IMG/VR virus record: IMGVR_UViG_3300024290_000011
Coordinates: 1 to 35,422 of that record
Reading direction: 5' to 3' (one strand)
DNA: 35,422 nt
Source of the DNA: a virus
Position numbers and translations under genes: made by a program. Below the pieces are notes generated by a model, which saw nothing but the letters and a program-made list of their open reading frames with translations, had not been told where the DNA came from and made no database searches. This document shows positions 441-23,976 of this stretch, in pieces (positions within the stretch are counted from its first letter, which is position 1; each line of letters opens with the position of its first letter).

Positions 441-478
441 GTCAAGGCTAACTTTGTCTAGACCATCTTTGTCAAGAC
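441..478. repeat. Array A: three 8-bp GTCWWGAC sites at 15-bp period
   Basis: GTCAAGGC (441-448), GTCTAGAC (456-463) and GTCAAGAC (471-478) lie exactly 15 bp apart in non-coding DNA between the tail tube stop and the terminator. The 7-bp spacers are alike (TAACTTT, CATCTTT). The same three-site, 15-bp-period layout recurs at 16776-16813. It is likely a protein-binding array; the protein is unknown. Confidence 0.7.
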
Positions 479-503
479 CAAGACAGCCATGACCGTAAAC
501 TGA

Positions 504-537
504 CAGGCCGCCCCGGTTCTCCGAGGCGGCCTGTTTC
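504..537 (+). terminator. Intrinsic terminator after the tail tube gene
   Basis: A 9-bp perfect GC-rich stem (CAGGCCGCC at 504-512 with GGCGGCCTG at 525-533) with a 12-nt loop is followed by TTT. The U-tract is short, so termination may be partial. That would fit high tail tube expression with reduced read-through into the chaperone and tape measure genes. Confidence 0.7.
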
Positions 538-10111: not shown

Positions 10112-12687
10112 TGGTCTGGGTATCCATAATCGTTGCGCTCGTCATGGCGGTCATCGGCGAGCTTCTCCGGCCGAAGCCGAAATTCAATGACCCGAAGCCG
10201 TCAGCGGTAGGCGACTTCTCGTTCCCCACCGTGGACGCTTCTCGCGTCATTCCGGTTTTCTTCGGCACCTGCAAGCACGAAGGCCCTAACGTTACGTGGT
10301 TTGGAGACCTGAAGGTCGTCACTCTGAAGAAGAAGGTCAAGACCGGCTGGTTCTCTTCCAAGAAGATCGTTCAGGGTTACAACTACTACCTTGGCGCGCA
10401 GCTTATTTTTTCGTATGGTCCGATCGACGAGTTTCTGGAAATTCGAGTCGACGACAAGAAAATCAGTCTGGTTCAGTCTGTTTTCTACATCCCTCCGGGC
10501 GGCGGCTTCGCATCGGCTGCGGCGGGGCTGGTGTACAAGACGAACTGGATCGCAGGTCCGCCGTCGTCTCGCGACTTCGTCGGCGACGTATGCAGCTTTT
10601 GGCTGTACGGCCCGAAGATTCTCGACAACGGCGACCCCCCGAACGGCGTCGTCGGGCAGTGCAGGATGTACCGGGGGTCGTTCGAGCAACCGCCTAACCT
10701 GTACCTGGGCCACAAGTGGTCGGAGCCGGATATGTCGGCGTTCCGTCCCTTGTTCTATATGGTCCTGGAGCAGTGCTATCTGGGCAACAGCGACACCCCG
10801 CCTCCTATCTCGGTCATTGCGAGGCGTTGCCCCAACCAACTCGGTCTCACCGGAGGAAGGCACAACGTCAACGGCGACTCGAACATCGCTTGCGCTGTGT
10901 ACGAAGTGATGACGAACAAGATGTGGGGCATGAAGATTCCCGAGGACAAAATCGACATCGATTCTTTCCGGGACTGCGGAAACATCTTGGCCGAAGAATC
11001 GATCGGCATTTCCATGCTGATTCAGACGGCCTTGAGCGGAAAAGACTTGGTCGCGGAAATGCTTCGTCACGCGGACGGCATCGTTTACGCCGACCCGATC
11101 ACGGGCCTGTACACGATGACGCTGGCTCGCGAAATTCCTGAAGACGAGCAGGAGTACCTTCTTGTCGTCGACGATTCTTGCATCGAAAAAGATACTTTCG
11201 ACTATTCGCGATCCTCTTGGGAACTGACGAAAAACACGATCATCGTAAAGTACACTGACCGAGCTACTTTCAGCACGAAGCCGGTCACGTACCAAGAGCT
11301 TGCGAACATCGACGTTCGAGGCGGAACGGTAGACCCGGAAGAGTTCGATTATCTCGGTTTCAGCAACTCGACGGCCGCCATGAACACGGCTGCGCGGATA
11401 TCGAAAATGAAATCTTCGCCGCTGGTGTCTGCGAAGATGTCGCTAAATCGAATCGGATACAAGCTGCGGCCCGGCTCGGCGTTCTGGCTGAGAAAGCCAA
11501 ACCTCGGATTGGCAAACGTGCTAATGCGGGTAATCGAAATCAGCTACGGAACGCTGGACGACCCTTCCGTGAAGATCACCGCTATGGAAGACATATTCGC
11601 TGTAAACGCGGTGGCGTATTTGCCGCCGGGGTCCGGGGAATGGGTGCCTCCGGTCGGTCCGGTCATCCCCTTCACGCAACGCCGCTTGTGGGAGGCGCCT
11701 GCTTTCGGAGCCGACGACAAGAGCCGTCGATTCGTAATGACCATGGCGGTTGCTCCAACCCAGTCCACAACTGCGTACGACGTGTGGTCCGACACGACCG
11801 GAGGCGATCTTCTCCTCCTGACGAATTCCGTAGACACGCTGACGCCGTCCGGAACGCTGGTGTCGTCGCTGTCCCGTACCGGACCCGAAGTCGACACTGC
11901 CGGATTCACGATCACCGCGCTCGTGGGCGTCGACGATATCGTGGAAGACGAATCCACAAACGCCCGAGAGAACGGCGAAAACCTTCTGGTGATCGGCAAC
12001 GAAATCATTGCCTGGCAGGCGTTGGTTGATAACGAAGACGGCACTCACACCGTCACGGGGACATTTCGCGGCGTTCTCGACACGCAGCCGGAAGACCACG
12101 CTGTAGGAGCGCGCGTGTATTTCATATCGGACGGAGCCGGCACTACCAACGAAGAAGGGTACGCCGCAGACGTGACGGTGTACGCCAAGTTGGTTCCGAA
12201 AAGCATTAACGACACGGTTGATATCGCGCTGGTCACGCTGGCGAGCGAAGCGACAAACGCCCGTGCGCTGCGTCCTTTACCTCCGAGCCGTTTGAGGATA
12301 AACGACGCTACGGTCGGTTCAAGCGCGGCCTATAGTGACGACATGAACGTCACATGGGCGCATCGCAACCGCATGGACGAAGATGTTCCGCCTCGTTCAG
12401 CGGTGTCTCGTACGATCGAGCCCGGAACCACATACAGCATTCGGGTCTACAACAGCTCGAACACGCTGTTGATTGCGCGGCTCGGTATCTCCGGAAGCGT
12501 TTCCTCCGCGGTAGTTCGCCTGGCTTCTTCTGGCAGCATGAGGATTGAAATAGAGGCTGTGCGAGACGGGTACGGAAGCTGGACAAAGCTGACGGGGTTG
12601 TTCTCGTACACCGCTGCAACCGGCGCGACAGCCAACGAAATCATCGTAGACGAACCCTCGTACATCCTAGACGGAGGCGGAGCGTAA
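10111..12687 (+). CDS. J-like tail tip / central hub protein
   Basis: This 858-residue protein starts at ATG 10111 (TAATG overlap with the previous stop) and opens with a hydrophobic segment (VSIIVALVMAVIGELL). Blocks at ~40-130 and ~200-330 resemble the hub proteins that follow BR0599 genes. At ~650 there is 'VTGTFRGVLDTQPEDHAVGA', a feature of J-like or gene-transfer-agent-like hubs. The last ~110 residues look like a fibronectin type III domain, the usual mount for fibres. It probably forms the trimeric tip that contacts the host envelope and carries the receptor-binding fibre encoded next. The hydrophobic N-terminus is common in this family and need not mean membrane insertion. Confidence 0.8.
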   Translation: MVWVSIIVALVMAVIGELLRPKPKFNDPKPSAVGDFSFPTVDASRVIPVFFGTCKHEGPNVTWFGDLKVVTLKKKVKTGWFSSKKIVQGYNYYLGAQLIFSYGPIDEFLEIRVDDKKISLVQSVFYIPPGGGFASAAAGLVYKTNWIAGPPSSRDFVGDVCSFWLYGPKILDNGDPPNGVVGQCRMYRGSFEQPPNLYLGHKWSEPDMSAFRPLFYMVLEQCYLGNSDTPPPISVIARRCPNQLGLTGGRHNVNGDSNIACAVYEVMTNKMWGMKIPEDKIDIDSFRDCGNILAEESIGISMLIQTALSGKDLVAEMLRHADGIVYADPITGLYTMTLAREIPEDEQEYLLVVDDSCIEKDTFDYSRSSWELTKNTIIVKYTDRATFSTKPVTYQELANIDVRGGTVDPEEFDYLGFSNSTAAMNTAARISKMKSSPLVSAKMSLNRIGYKLRPGSAFWLRKPNLGLANVLMRVIEISYGTLDDPSVKITAMEDIFAVNAVAYLPPGSGEWVPPVGPVIPFTQRRLWEAPAFGADDKSRRFVMTMAVAPTQSTTAYDVWSDTTGGDLLLLTNSVDTLTPSGTLVSSLSRTGPEVDTAGFTITALVGVDDIVEDESTNARENGENLLVIGNEIIAWQALVDNEDGTHTVTGTFRGVLDTQPEDHAVGARVYFISDGAGTTNEEGYAADVTVYAKLVPKSINDTVDIALVTLASEATNARALRPLPPSRLRINDATVGSSAAYSDDMNVTWAHRNRMDEDVPPRSAVSRTIEPGTTYSIRVYNSSNTLLIARLGISGSVSSAVVRLASSGSMRIEIEAVRDGYGSWTKLTGLFSYTAATGATANEIIVDEPSYILDGGGA

Positions 12688-16621: not shown

Positions 16622-16650
16622 TTGACAGCCGCTAGGAGCCTAGGTATAGT
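16622..16650 (+). promoter_or_regulatory. Strong sigma70-type promoter
   Basis: TTGACA (16622-16627) and TATAGT (16645-16650) are separated by exactly 17 bp: a perfect -35 box and a 5/6 -10 box. It begins right after the Rz1 stop codon. Only a ~120-base non-coding stretch and a terminator follow, so it should drive the candidate sRNA rather than an mRNA. Confidence 0.75.
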
Positions 16651-16656
16651 CGACTC

Positions 16657-16773
16657 GCTGGTGACACACTTCGCGTTGCATCGGCACTCGGCAGAGAGAA
16701 ACGGTCCGCGGACGCAAGCCCGCCGCCCGGCAAGGACGAGGAACCCCGGAGAGACCCTCCGGGGTTTCTTTTT
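16657..16773 (+). ncRNA. Candidate small RNA (promoter-to-terminator unit)
   Basis: A near-consensus promoter lies just upstream and an intrinsic terminator closes the unit, giving a predicted transcript of about 117 nt. No ATG-initiated ORF with a ribosome site is present; one frame is open but runs through the terminator without a credible start. The body contains the 10-bp palindrome GTCCGCGGAC and C-rich segments. No tRNA-like cloverleaf was found. It may regulate host or phage mRNAs, or act antisense to read-through from the opposing operon. The exact 5' end is an estimate. Confidence 0.6.
16742..16773 (+). terminator. Intrinsic terminator of the candidate sRNA / lysis operon
   Basis: AACCCCGGA (16742-16750) pairs perfectly with TCCGGGGTT (16758-16766), extended by a G-C pair, and is followed by TCTTTTT. 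This strong rightward terminator also ends the tail/lysis transcripts. On the other strand it lacks a U-tract. Confidence 0.9.
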
Positions 16774-16775
16774 GC

Positions 16776-16813
16776 GTCAAGACGAACTTAGTCAAGACGA
16801 AGTTGGTCTTGAC
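16776..16813. repeat. Array B: three GTCWWGAC sites at 15-bp period
   Basis: GTCAAGAC (16776-16783), GTCAAGAC (16791-16798) and GTCTTGAC (16806-16813) lie exactly 15 bp apart. Read on the minus strand the array aligns base for base with array A at 441-478, with similar 7-bp spacers (CAACTTC, TAAGTTC). Sites one and three plus flanks also form a 14-bp inverted repeat with one mismatch. It lies between two convergent terminators. Confidence 0.75.
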
Positions 16814-16820
16814 CAGAAAT

Positions 16821-16853
16821 GAAAACGCCCCCGGCATTTCTGCGCGGGGGCGT
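16821..16853 (-). terminator. Intrinsic terminator of the leftward operon
   Basis: On the minus strand, ACGCCCCCG (plus 16853-16845) pairs with CGGGGGCGT (plus 16833-16825), followed by TTTTC. It lies ~120 bases after the last leftward gene and faces the lysis/sRNA terminator, so transcription from both sides is stopped here. Confidence 0.85.
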
Positions 16854-16971
16854 GAGGTCGAGGCGGCGGTTCTGTTGTTCCGGTGTCCGCGTCATCGCGA
16901 CGAGGTTGATCCGGCTGGAAGGGCACGTACGCTTCGACGAGGCTCTACCTTACTGCGATTGCCAGCGGCCG

Positions 16972-17856
16972 TCAAGCCTCGAACTGCTCGGCGAACTTGA
17001 GCATTTTCTTCCGCGCCGCGTCGACGCCTTTCTTCCACTTCTCCCAGCTCTTCGGTTCGATATGCGCGAGAATTTCGTCGCGCGCCATGTCGCTCAGCAC
17101 CTGGGGCGGCAGCGCATCGAGTTCCCAGCTCGAAGGCCCGAAACGCTTGCGGTAGTTGACGAAGCGAGCGTCCGTGGTCTTGGCCGGATTCGGCGGCGGC
17201 TTCAGCTCCTCGACTTGGTCGATGTTCAGCGCCATGCGCTTGAGCGTGAAGTCGCCGCCCAAGCCGAACATCTCGAAGCGCTCCCGGAGGTCTCGCGTCA
17301 TGTCGATGCCGCTGGGGTCGTGATCGCCGAAATGCAGCACGACGACATCTTTCGAGCCATTGTTGAACTCGATTTCCTTCTGAGCGAATTCGCGGACTAC
17401 GGATGCGCTCGGGTATCCGCGTGCGGCCAGCAGCGGAACGTCGTACTCACGGCACACGCGCTGGAACACGCCGACGAGAGCTTCCTTTTCGACAACCAAG
17501 AACACGCGGGAGCCTTGGGTTTCCCAAGGGTCGGTATGGTATTGCTCGGCGCTCGCACGCAAGATGTCCTGCGGGCACGTCCACCGGCTTCGCTGCTCGA
17601 ACGAGCGCGTGCGATCTTCGATCGCGTCCCAGTCGATCAGGCCTGCAATTCGGGCGTCATTGACGATGCTCGTGGTCTGCTTGTACGACTTCTCGTTGTT
17701 CGGAATGATGTCGCGAGCGACGAGCTGGTAGTAGAGCTGGCGGACCGTGAGCGTGTAGCCGGCGTCCAAGTACTCTTCGATGATCGCGTTTATGCGATCA
17801 ATCTGCAAAAGCGTTTTCTTCTTGAACGTGATTTCGCGATATTGTTCCAAGCTCAT
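16972..17856 (-). CDS. Spo11/topoisomerase VI subunit A-like protein
   Basis: This 294-residue protein keeps the key elements of the TopoVI-A/Spo11 family. 'TLTVRQLYYQLVARD' (35-49) resembles the winged-helix active site, with Tyr43 in the place of the DNA-cleaving tyrosine. A TOPRIM domain follows, with 'VFLVVEKEAL' (Glu123), 'ARGYPS' (~145-150) and 'HFGDHDPSGIDM' (Asp178, Asp180). Family members bind Mg2+ through the TOPRIM acidic residues and cut both strands of DNA by tyrosine transesterification. No GHKL-type ATPase (B subunit) gene is seen in this window. It is the last gene of the leftward operon and overlaps the methylase-like gene by ATGA. Cleavage activity is inferred; it might act as a nuclease or recombination initiator. 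Confidence 0.7.
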   Translation of the reverse strand: MSLEQYREITFKKKTLLQIDRINAIIEEYLDAGYTLTVRQLYYQLVARDIIPNNEKSYKQTTSIVNDARIAGLIDWDAIEDRTRSFEQRSRWTCPQDILRASAEQYHTDPWETQGSRVFLVVEKEALVGVFQRVCREYDVPLLAARGYPSASVVREFAQKEIEFNNGSKDVVVLHFGDHDPSGIDMTRDLRERFEMFGLGGDFTLKRMALNIDQVEELKPPPNPAKTTDARFVNYRKRFGPSSWELDALPPQVLSDMARDEILAHIEPKSWEKWKKGVDAARKKMLKFAEQFEA

Positions 17857-21832: not shown

Positions 21833-22282
21833 TCAGCGGCCGACGACGAACTTGGTCTGGCGCTGCACGGTGCCGCGCTTGGTCTCGCGGAACAGGACGA
21901 CGGTGGTCTCGGCCTTCTCGTCGCTCATGAGGCTGGCGTCGTCGAGGGCGTCCTTCTCGGACGCGAACGGGCCGTTCAGGGCGCCGGCCGTCATCTTGCC
22001 GTCCGCCGCCTTGGTCAGCAGCAGGTACGCGATCTGCTTGTCGCCCTTCTTGCCCTTGCGACCGCGACGCTTGCCCGCGGGGCGGCCCCGCTTCTTGCCT
22101 TCGGTCGAGTTCTTCGTGCCGGCGGGACGGCCGCGCTTCTTCGCGGGCGTCGCGGCTTCGACGGCGGGCTTCTCGGTCTTCTTCGCGGGCTTCTTCGTGT
22201 TCGCGGGCTTCTTGGCCGCCGGCGCCTTGGCCTTCTTCTTGGCGGGCTTCTTGGCGGTGTCGTTTTCGGTGGTGTCGCTCAT
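21833..22282 (-). CDS. AT-hook / histone H1-like DNA-binding protein
   Basis: This 149-residue protein has a Lys/Ala/Pro-rich first half like histone H1 tails (KKPAKKKAKAPAAKKPANTK). AT-hooks lie at 49-55 (KRGRPAG, GRP 51-53) and 64-70 (KRGRPAG, GRP 66-68), plus a third basic patch 'KRRGRKGKK'. AT-hooks insert Arg-Gly-Arg into the minor groove of AT-rich DNA. The C-terminal ~65 residues are a small mixed fold without a known motif. It probably coats or bends phage or host DNA, or tunes host promoters. It is flanked by a terminator downstream and a palindrome-rich leader upstream, suggesting strong, separate expression. Its 5' leader (GGAGACCACCATG) is identical to that of the operon's first gene. 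Confidence 0.7.
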   Translation of the reverse strand: MSDTTENDTAKKPAKKKAKAPAAKKPANTKKPAKKTEKPAVEAATPAKKRGRPAGTKNSTEGKKRGRPAGKRRGRKGKKGDKQIAYLLLTKAADGKMTAGALNGPFASEKDALDDASLMSDEKAETTVVLFRETKRGTVQRQTKFVVGR

Positions 22283-22604: not shown

Positions 22605-23300
22605 TCAGTCGCAGCCCCGCGTGGCGTTCGGCTTCGTCGGGTGGTCGGCGCTGTAGATGCGGAAATCGCGCCAGCCTTCATCGCCGCCGCACGCGAAGCC
22701 CCAAGGTCCGAGGCGGCGGCCGGTGAAGAACAGCGTCCAGCACTCCTCGTCGTTGTTTCCGAACAGTTCGATGAGATGCATGTGATCCGGATGCAACTCA
22801 CGGAAATCACCTGCACTGAAGCACTGGAAGTAATCGAAAGTGTGCTGCCCGGGGAACCTGCCCTTGTTCCGCTCCACGCTGCCGTTGACGTAAGTTCGGC
22901 CGTCCGCTGGGTTGAATAGCTGAAGCATCTCGCTGTTATGCGCTGCGATTCCCGTACTCGACTTGTCGAGAGGCTGATCCAGCATCCACTCGCTCGTACG
23001 CTCGCGGTAGCGGCCCGACAGCAGCAGCGACCAGCTGCGCCACGGGTGATCGTGCAGCGCGCGATCGTCGTCACCGTGCAGGAAGCGGTGCAGGCGGATG
23101 TTGAAGATCGGGTTGCGCGGGATCAGATACCAGCGCACCAGGTACGGGCGGCGCGGGCCGCCATCGACGCCGTCCAGCGTGATTTCGCGGCTCGGCGGTA
23201 TCACACGGGCGTAAAGCTTCAGCGCGGAAACGAACACGGACCAGAGGCTCAGCTTCGACATGAGCCGATAGAACTTGCGGGACACGGGCGGTGCGATCAC
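22605..23300 (-). CDS. Cupin-type protein
   Basis: This 231-residue protein contains 'YLVRWYLIPRNPIFNIRLHR' and 'RALHDHPWRSWSLLLSGRY', typical of a phage/bacterial cupin family with a His-Asp-His-Pro-Trp metal-binding motif. A later 'HPDHMHLIELF' and 'CWTLFFTGRRLGPWGF' supply further His and aromatic residues of the barrel. Such cupins usually bind a divalent metal; substrates are unknown. An N-terminal hydrophobic helix (SLWSVFVSALKLYARVI) may lie on the membrane. Neighbours give no pathway. It overlaps the preceding small gene by ATGA. Confidence 0.7.
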   Translation of the reverse strand: MIAPPVSRKFYRLMSKLSLWSVFVSALKLYARVIPPSREITLDGVDGGPRRPYLVRWYLIPRNPIFNIRLHRFLHGDDDRALHDHPWRSWSLLLSGRYRERTSEWMLDQPLDKSSTGIAAHNSEMLQLFNPADGRTYVNGSVERNKGRFPGQHTFDYFQCFSAGDFRELHPDHMHLIELFGNNDEECWTLFFTGRRLGPWGFACGGDEGWRDFRIYSADHPTKPNATRGCD

Positions 23301-23748: not shown

Positions 23749-23976
23749 CTAGCGCCAGCTTTTCGGTTTGTCAACACCTTTTCTTCGATCCGGCGGACGG
23801 CCCAGCCGAGCCAGTTTCCGCTCACCTTGGAACAGGCGGTCCCGCAGCATCTTCTCGGTGACGTGCGGGCAGCACTTGCGCAGCTGCTCGAAGGTCATCT
23901 GCTCGCCGCCGTCGACGGTGTACAGCCGAGCTGTTGGCAGCTCTTGAACTTCGTCGTCGAACTTCTTTCGGCTCAT
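23749..23976 (-). CDS. Small HTH-type DNA-binding protein
   Basis: The start is ATG 23976 (ATGA overlap with the upstream gene); the longer frame is a shadow. The 75-residue product contains 'MTFEQLRKCCPHVTEKMLRD' then 'RLFQGERKLARLGRPP', resembling the helix-turn-helix of small phage proteins ('L..RL..G..tle.L..P' pattern). The C-terminus is basic (RRKGVDKPKSWR). It may be a transcriptional regulator or a DNA-binding accessory. Assignment is by pattern only. Confidence 0.55.
   Translation of the reverse strand: MSRKKFDDEVQELPTARLYTVDGGEQMTFEQLRKCCPHVTEKMLRDRLFQGERKLARLGRPPDRRKGVDKPKSWR

Follow-up and report, generated by a model that had tools for sequence, protein, structure and literature searches.

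The window analyzed here is the whole of a 35.4-kb virus record whose first base falls within the major tail protein (MTP) gene, and it is a fragment of a Casjensviridae phage of the Salvovirus/Sanovirus type. Among annotated phages, it is closest to Xanthomonas phage AhaSv, Stenotrophomonas phages Suzuki and Bhz60, and “Clavibacter phage 33,” all of which are classed in the Casjensviridae, genus Salvovirus or Sanovirus. Between the MTP stop and the hairpin preceding the tail chaperone gene lies a tandem array of four short sites (array A), and a second array, of three sites (array B), lies opposite the 3′ end of a DNA topoisomerase-like gene (Table 1).

Two of the four units in array A match GTCWWGAC exactly and two are off by one mismatch. 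All three units in array B are exact (GTCAAGAC at 16776-16783 and again at 16791-16798, and GTCTTGAC at 16806-16813), reproducing the triplet and the 15-bp period reported by the first-pass annotation, which also correctly placed the array between convergent terminators, with the rightward T-tract ending at 16773 and the leftward hairpin at about 16821-16853. GTCWWGAC occurs nine times in the window, against 2.1 expected; among 2000 first-order Markov versions of the window, with any period of 9 to 30 allowed, an equally spaced triplet never arose (0/2000) and a pair arose five times.

Table 1. Features at and around the two arrays, by position in the window
Feature	Position	Strand	Remarks
Array A, four units, 15-bp period: GTCAAGGC, GTCTAGAC, GTCAAGAC, GCCATGAC	441..493	+	Two- or three-unit versions in 8 other genomes
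Hairpin just 3′ of array A, 5′ of tail chaperone gene	502..536	+	Suzuki and Bhz60 annotations give a terminator
Predicted promoter TTGACA-N17-TATAGT	16622..16650	+	Near-consensus; directly after o-spanin stop
Predicted rightward small RNA, ~115 nt	16657..16773	+	Ends at rightward terminator
Rightward intrinsic terminator	16744..16773	+	T-tract ends 2-3 bp 5′ of array B
Array B, three GTCWWGAC units, 15-bp period	16776..16813	+	Same place in 6 other genomes
Predicted leftward small RNA, ~120 nt	16819..16940	-	Ends at leftward terminator
Leftward intrinsic terminator	16821..16853	-	
Predicted promoter TTGACG-N17-TAAGGT	16947..16975	-	At topoisomerase stop
DNA topoisomerase-like gene, phrog_6247	16972..17856	-	3′ end faces array B
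Candidate array-binding protein, small, HTH-like, phrog_28977	23752..23976	-	Co-occurs with arrays; link circumstantial

The late operon of complete relatives has the order terminase-portal-capsid-MTP-tail chaperone-tape measure-tail-lysis, so that array A is internal to the operon, at the MTP/tail chaperone junction, and array B alone stands at the operon end. The arrays had been taken to bracket the whole tail and lysis module, an impression that arose because the window starts within the MTP gene; what persists among relatives is their occurrence at the same two loci in every genome that covers them, without any bracketing. Both adjoin terminator-type hairpins, and each closes a late transcription segment at its 3′ end. 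The hairpin following array A has a weak T-tract in the window, and its stem is invariant among the relatives compared.

Elsewhere in the window, the minus strand encodes a protein with a repetitive Lys/Ala-rich, histone H1-like stretch that is kept across the clade (21833-22282) and, within the early leftward operon, a cysteine dioxygenase-like gene (phrog_4786; 22605-23300).

Conservation and taxonomic range of the arrays

Whole-record scans of four isolate phages (AhaSv, Suzuki, Bhz60, and phage 33) and three IMG/VR contigs (2974651518, 3300048835_000175, and 3300048833_000123) confined the two-unit motif to the array A and array B loci. The last of these contigs carries array A only and probably ends short of B, and in AhaSv the middle unit of array B is changed, such that the array was detected by a looser scan. 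Contig L162 also has array A. Copy number in array A varies, with two units in two metagenome contigs, three in AhaSv, Suzuki, Bhz60, phage 33, and L162, and four in the window; array B has three units in every covering genome, and the 15-bp step is constant in both. When array B is compared between lineages, the cores are identical at 16 to 18 of 18 positions and the linkers at 6 to 8 of 14, indicating that selection acts on the sites and their register.

Across the 24 distinct units, the pairs G0/C7 and C2/G5 are invariant and complementary (24/24), but the dyad fails at the center (3/24) and in the flanks (8 to 11 of 24), and the unit is thus not palindromic over its full length. The late-sense orientation scores higher in 21 of the 24, and the consensus, G-Y-C-A-A-G-R-C followed by CAA, combines a dyad core with asymmetry; the central dinucleotide is variable, and the window has one inverted unit. 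Comparison with relatives aligns A and B on the same plus (late-sense) strand, not with B on the minus strand as the first-pass annotation had it. The 14-bp inverted repeat described between sites 1 and 3 is present in the window (GTCAAGACGAACTT at 16776-16789 against AAGTTGGTCTTGAC at 16800-16813, with one mismatch), but it requires the TT center of unit 3, which is absent from the third unit of all relatives; the repeat is therefore not a conserved feature and merely reflects the near-palindromic units.

A coding origin for the 15-bp period (five codons) was ruled out, as the frame of the array relative to the MTP stop differs between the window and AhaSv and stops interrupt it (read by eye). 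A single DNA element makes up both arrays, at two fixed places, and its existence and the selection on it are almost certain. With a fixed register, conserved cores, linkers that drift, and a variable copy number, it has the look of a protein-binding array.

The array-bearing clade comprises viruses of plant and soil bacteria. One member, OR548257 (Clavibacter phage 33, our L093), is labeled as a phage of a Gram-positive actinobacterium, yet it is close Casjensviridae kin of the Stenotrophomonas phages and encodes Gram-negative spanins; its host label looks doubtful. The array was absent from all 43 of the other viral loci examined that encode a related MTP (44 to 52% identical), many of which have an MTP-to-chaperone gap of just 9 to 15 bp. 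BcepNazgul and AH2 have neither array A nor array B. PspYZU01 and the Chi-like SPN19 share the position, with a hairpin and T-tract between MTP and tail chaperone genes, yet lack the array, which is specific to the Salvovirus/Sanovirus clade. A search of 84,980 prokaryotic species genomes for the exact triplet returned 48 scattered matches, none titled Xanthomonas, Stenotrophomonas, or Xylella; a sample of 369 gammaproteobacterial genomes (families not named) was almost free of the pair pattern, and the plasmids scanned had no comparable array. Present in the clade, missing from more distant Casjensviridae, and with no host-type counterpart found, the arrays are an addition by the Salvovirus/Sanovirus clade. 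Outside the clade, four IMG/VR matches to the generic pattern (L006, L007, L008, and L242) proved to be unrelated tandem repeats, of which L007 and L242 appear to be coding, and no arrays with other periods were recognized in the topoisomerase gene neighborhoods of distant phages. The literature searched held no relevant description of arrays in Casjensviridae or in late operons, which is weak evidence of novelty, since most subscription journals were outside reach.

Predicted transcripts and a candidate binding protein

Both hairpins that flank array B have the GC stem and T-tract of a plain intrinsic terminator, which the array itself does not; it lies outside both, and its units in relatives are direct repeats that form no hairpin. 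The distance from the rightward T-tract to the first unit is maintained in 7/7 genomes. The pattern TTGACR-N16..18-TANNNT occurs exactly three times per genome in the sequence compared (window, AhaSv, Suzuki, and 3300048835_000175): one copy follows the o-spanin stop, another lies on the other strand where the topoisomerase-like gene ends, and the third lies where a small HTH-like gene ends. The two promoters around array B converge, and each reaches a terminator within ~110 to 150 nt. Conserved convergent promoters, each with its own terminator, lead us to predict two convergent small RNA genes, newly described here, with array B exactly between their ends. The prediction draws on the conserved promoters, the terminators, and the sequences, which are conserved in the clade; minus their terminators, the predicted RNAs fold no better than shuffled sequences, and covariation lends them little or no support. 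Scanning the window against Rfam and for tRNAs gave no matches.

Relative to AhaSv (L004:10708-10855), contig 2974651518 (L010:6930-7075) has its leftward terminator swapped for an unrelated hairpin, while both the array and the bulk of the RNA body are retained. The third promoter (TTGACA-N17-TAGAGT; 23774-23560, minus strand) is followed by a conserved untranslated leader of ~200 nt (GCAGTAACGA..TTTACTTCGG..GAACTGC) in the window, AhaSv, Suzuki, and Bhz60.

Two HTH-like proteins, phrog_28977 and phrog_31043, were found in array-bearing phages only, although this co-occurrence is weak because many other genes are also clade specific. In AhaSv, the two HTH candidates are encoded at record positions 10559-10792 and 51656-52036. 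For phrog_28977, our best candidate, the AlphaFold model was too poor for a structure search, and no conserved intergenic site beyond A and B, such as one 5′ of a candidate gene, appeared among the matches listed. A link to the neighboring methyltransferase was ruled out, given that among the relatives compared Bhz60 alone encodes it and AhaSv and Suzuki do not. A cos or packaging site is unlikely, the cos of Suzuki being annotated at 55,966, distant from both arrays.

Possible roles of the arrays

Since A and B each lie where a late segment has its 3′ end, next to a terminator-type hairpin, we infer that protein binds them and that an array so filled would reinforce termination. In the reading that we prefer, to which we assign a probability of roughly 0.4, the arrays would be a landing row for a putative, probably phage-encoded protein that fills the row cooperatively, with one dimer or oligomer per 15 bp, to make an oriented roadblock or insulator strengthening the adjoining terminators. 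At A, this would lessen read-through from the abundant head/MTP transcript into the genes for tail assembly and lysis; at B, late rightward and early leftward transcription would be kept from colliding, as would the predicted convergent small transcripts. Several observations count against the roadblock: the geometry differs, with A lying 5′ of its hairpin and B 3′ of its terminator; a step of 15 bp does not correspond to an integral number of helical turns; and a dyad core with an asymmetric consensus would suit either a dimer or a monomer.

Tandem operator arrays of cooperative repressors and centromere proteins (of the MetJ, omega, and ParR/parC type) have a fixed register, a variable copy number, and drifting spacers. 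The arrays described here share all three traits but differ in their 15-bp step, in not lying at a promoter, and in occurring as two copies at transcription-unit ends. In its proposed action, the element would most resemble the stoperators of cluster A mycobacteriophages (L5 and TipsytheTRex), which are short sites in narrow intergenic gaps, oriented along transcription and proposed to halt elongation once a phage protein is bound (PMC9283540, PMC6550527). The units of arrays A and B are likewise oriented with transcription (21/24 late-sense). Stoperators, however, are single asymmetric 13-mers at more than 20 places, bound by a lysogenic repressor as a monomer (PMC9283540, PMC6550527), whereas the present arrays lie at two places only, each with two to four tandem dyad-cored sites in a 15-bp register, and their clade’s group includes the Xylella phages Sano and Salvo, which are described as virulent (PMC4479439). 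With two arrays per genome in place of more than 20 dispersed single sites, we do not class them as stoperators. No match to a repressor family was found among the window open reading frames scanned, most of which had no family match.

The position of array B exactly at a convergent junction, adjoining a topoisomerase-like gene, raises the alternative of a centromere, condensation, or topology site, either of the parS kind or one at which the topoisomerase-like protein is loaded or cleaves, placed where supercoils from convergent transcription accumulate. Near-palindromic sites in tandem typify binding of the ParB or centromere type, and the distant relative BcepNazgul has a ParB-like gene. 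But array A lies at no convergent junction, the topoisomerase-like gene, present in the array clade, occurs also in the array-less PspYZU01 and SPN19, BcepNazgul has no array, and no ParB-like protein was found among the open reading frames scanned in the window, itself a fragment in which many genes are without assignment; we regard such a site as improbable. We think it similarly improbable that the element acts in RNA, as a late-sense transcript repeat (GUCAAGACCAA) bound by an RNA-binding protein or a Rho-type factor ahead of the hairpin. Array A does precede its hairpin, and the late-sense bias of the units agrees with this idea, but array B lies beyond the rightward terminator and would be transcribed on read-through only. 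The variable center, the inverted unit in the window, and the invariant G0/C7 and C2/G5 pairs fit recognition of DNA, and the array has neither a covariation-supported RNA structure nor an Rfam match.

Should the binder be a host-encoded regulator and not a phage protein, the host sigma-70-like promoters that flank B would be in keeping, as they imply that host factors act at the locus; the search of species genomes, with no match titled for Xanthomonas, Stenotrophomonas, or Xylella, and the near absence of the pair pattern from the gammaproteobacterial sample make this quite improbable. More improbable still is that the repeats serve as borders for module exchange, allowing the tail-lysis block between A and B to swap among phages. 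Similar sequences do flank a gene block of 14.8 to 17.9 kb in all clade members, but identity shows no sharp step at the arrays (MTP, 75 to 83%; first terminator, 74 to 95%; spanin, 62 to 76%), A and B are only loosely alike, each resembling its orthologous array in relatives, and their surroundings showed no integrase or resolvase. The first-pass annotation had offered recombination, border, or late-control sites; we found no evidence of recombination, and a border or transcription-control role stays the better option.

A fuller version of the roadblock reading, in which an undescribed oriented roadblock or insulator of virulent phages employs a clade-specific protein that fixes late 3′ ends and separates convergent small RNAs at B, we consider doubtful. 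In virulent phages, the differing dosages of head, major tail, and tail-assembly proteins and the separation of convergent operons are mostly explained by promoters and plain terminators. Recurring at exactly two transcription-unit ends, its register conserved and its copy number changeable, the element is a defined DNA target in a search for its binder, and the pair of convergent small RNAs predicted alongside array B is another lead open to testing. The arrays may thereby offer a test case for protein-assisted termination in virulent phages with one long late operon.
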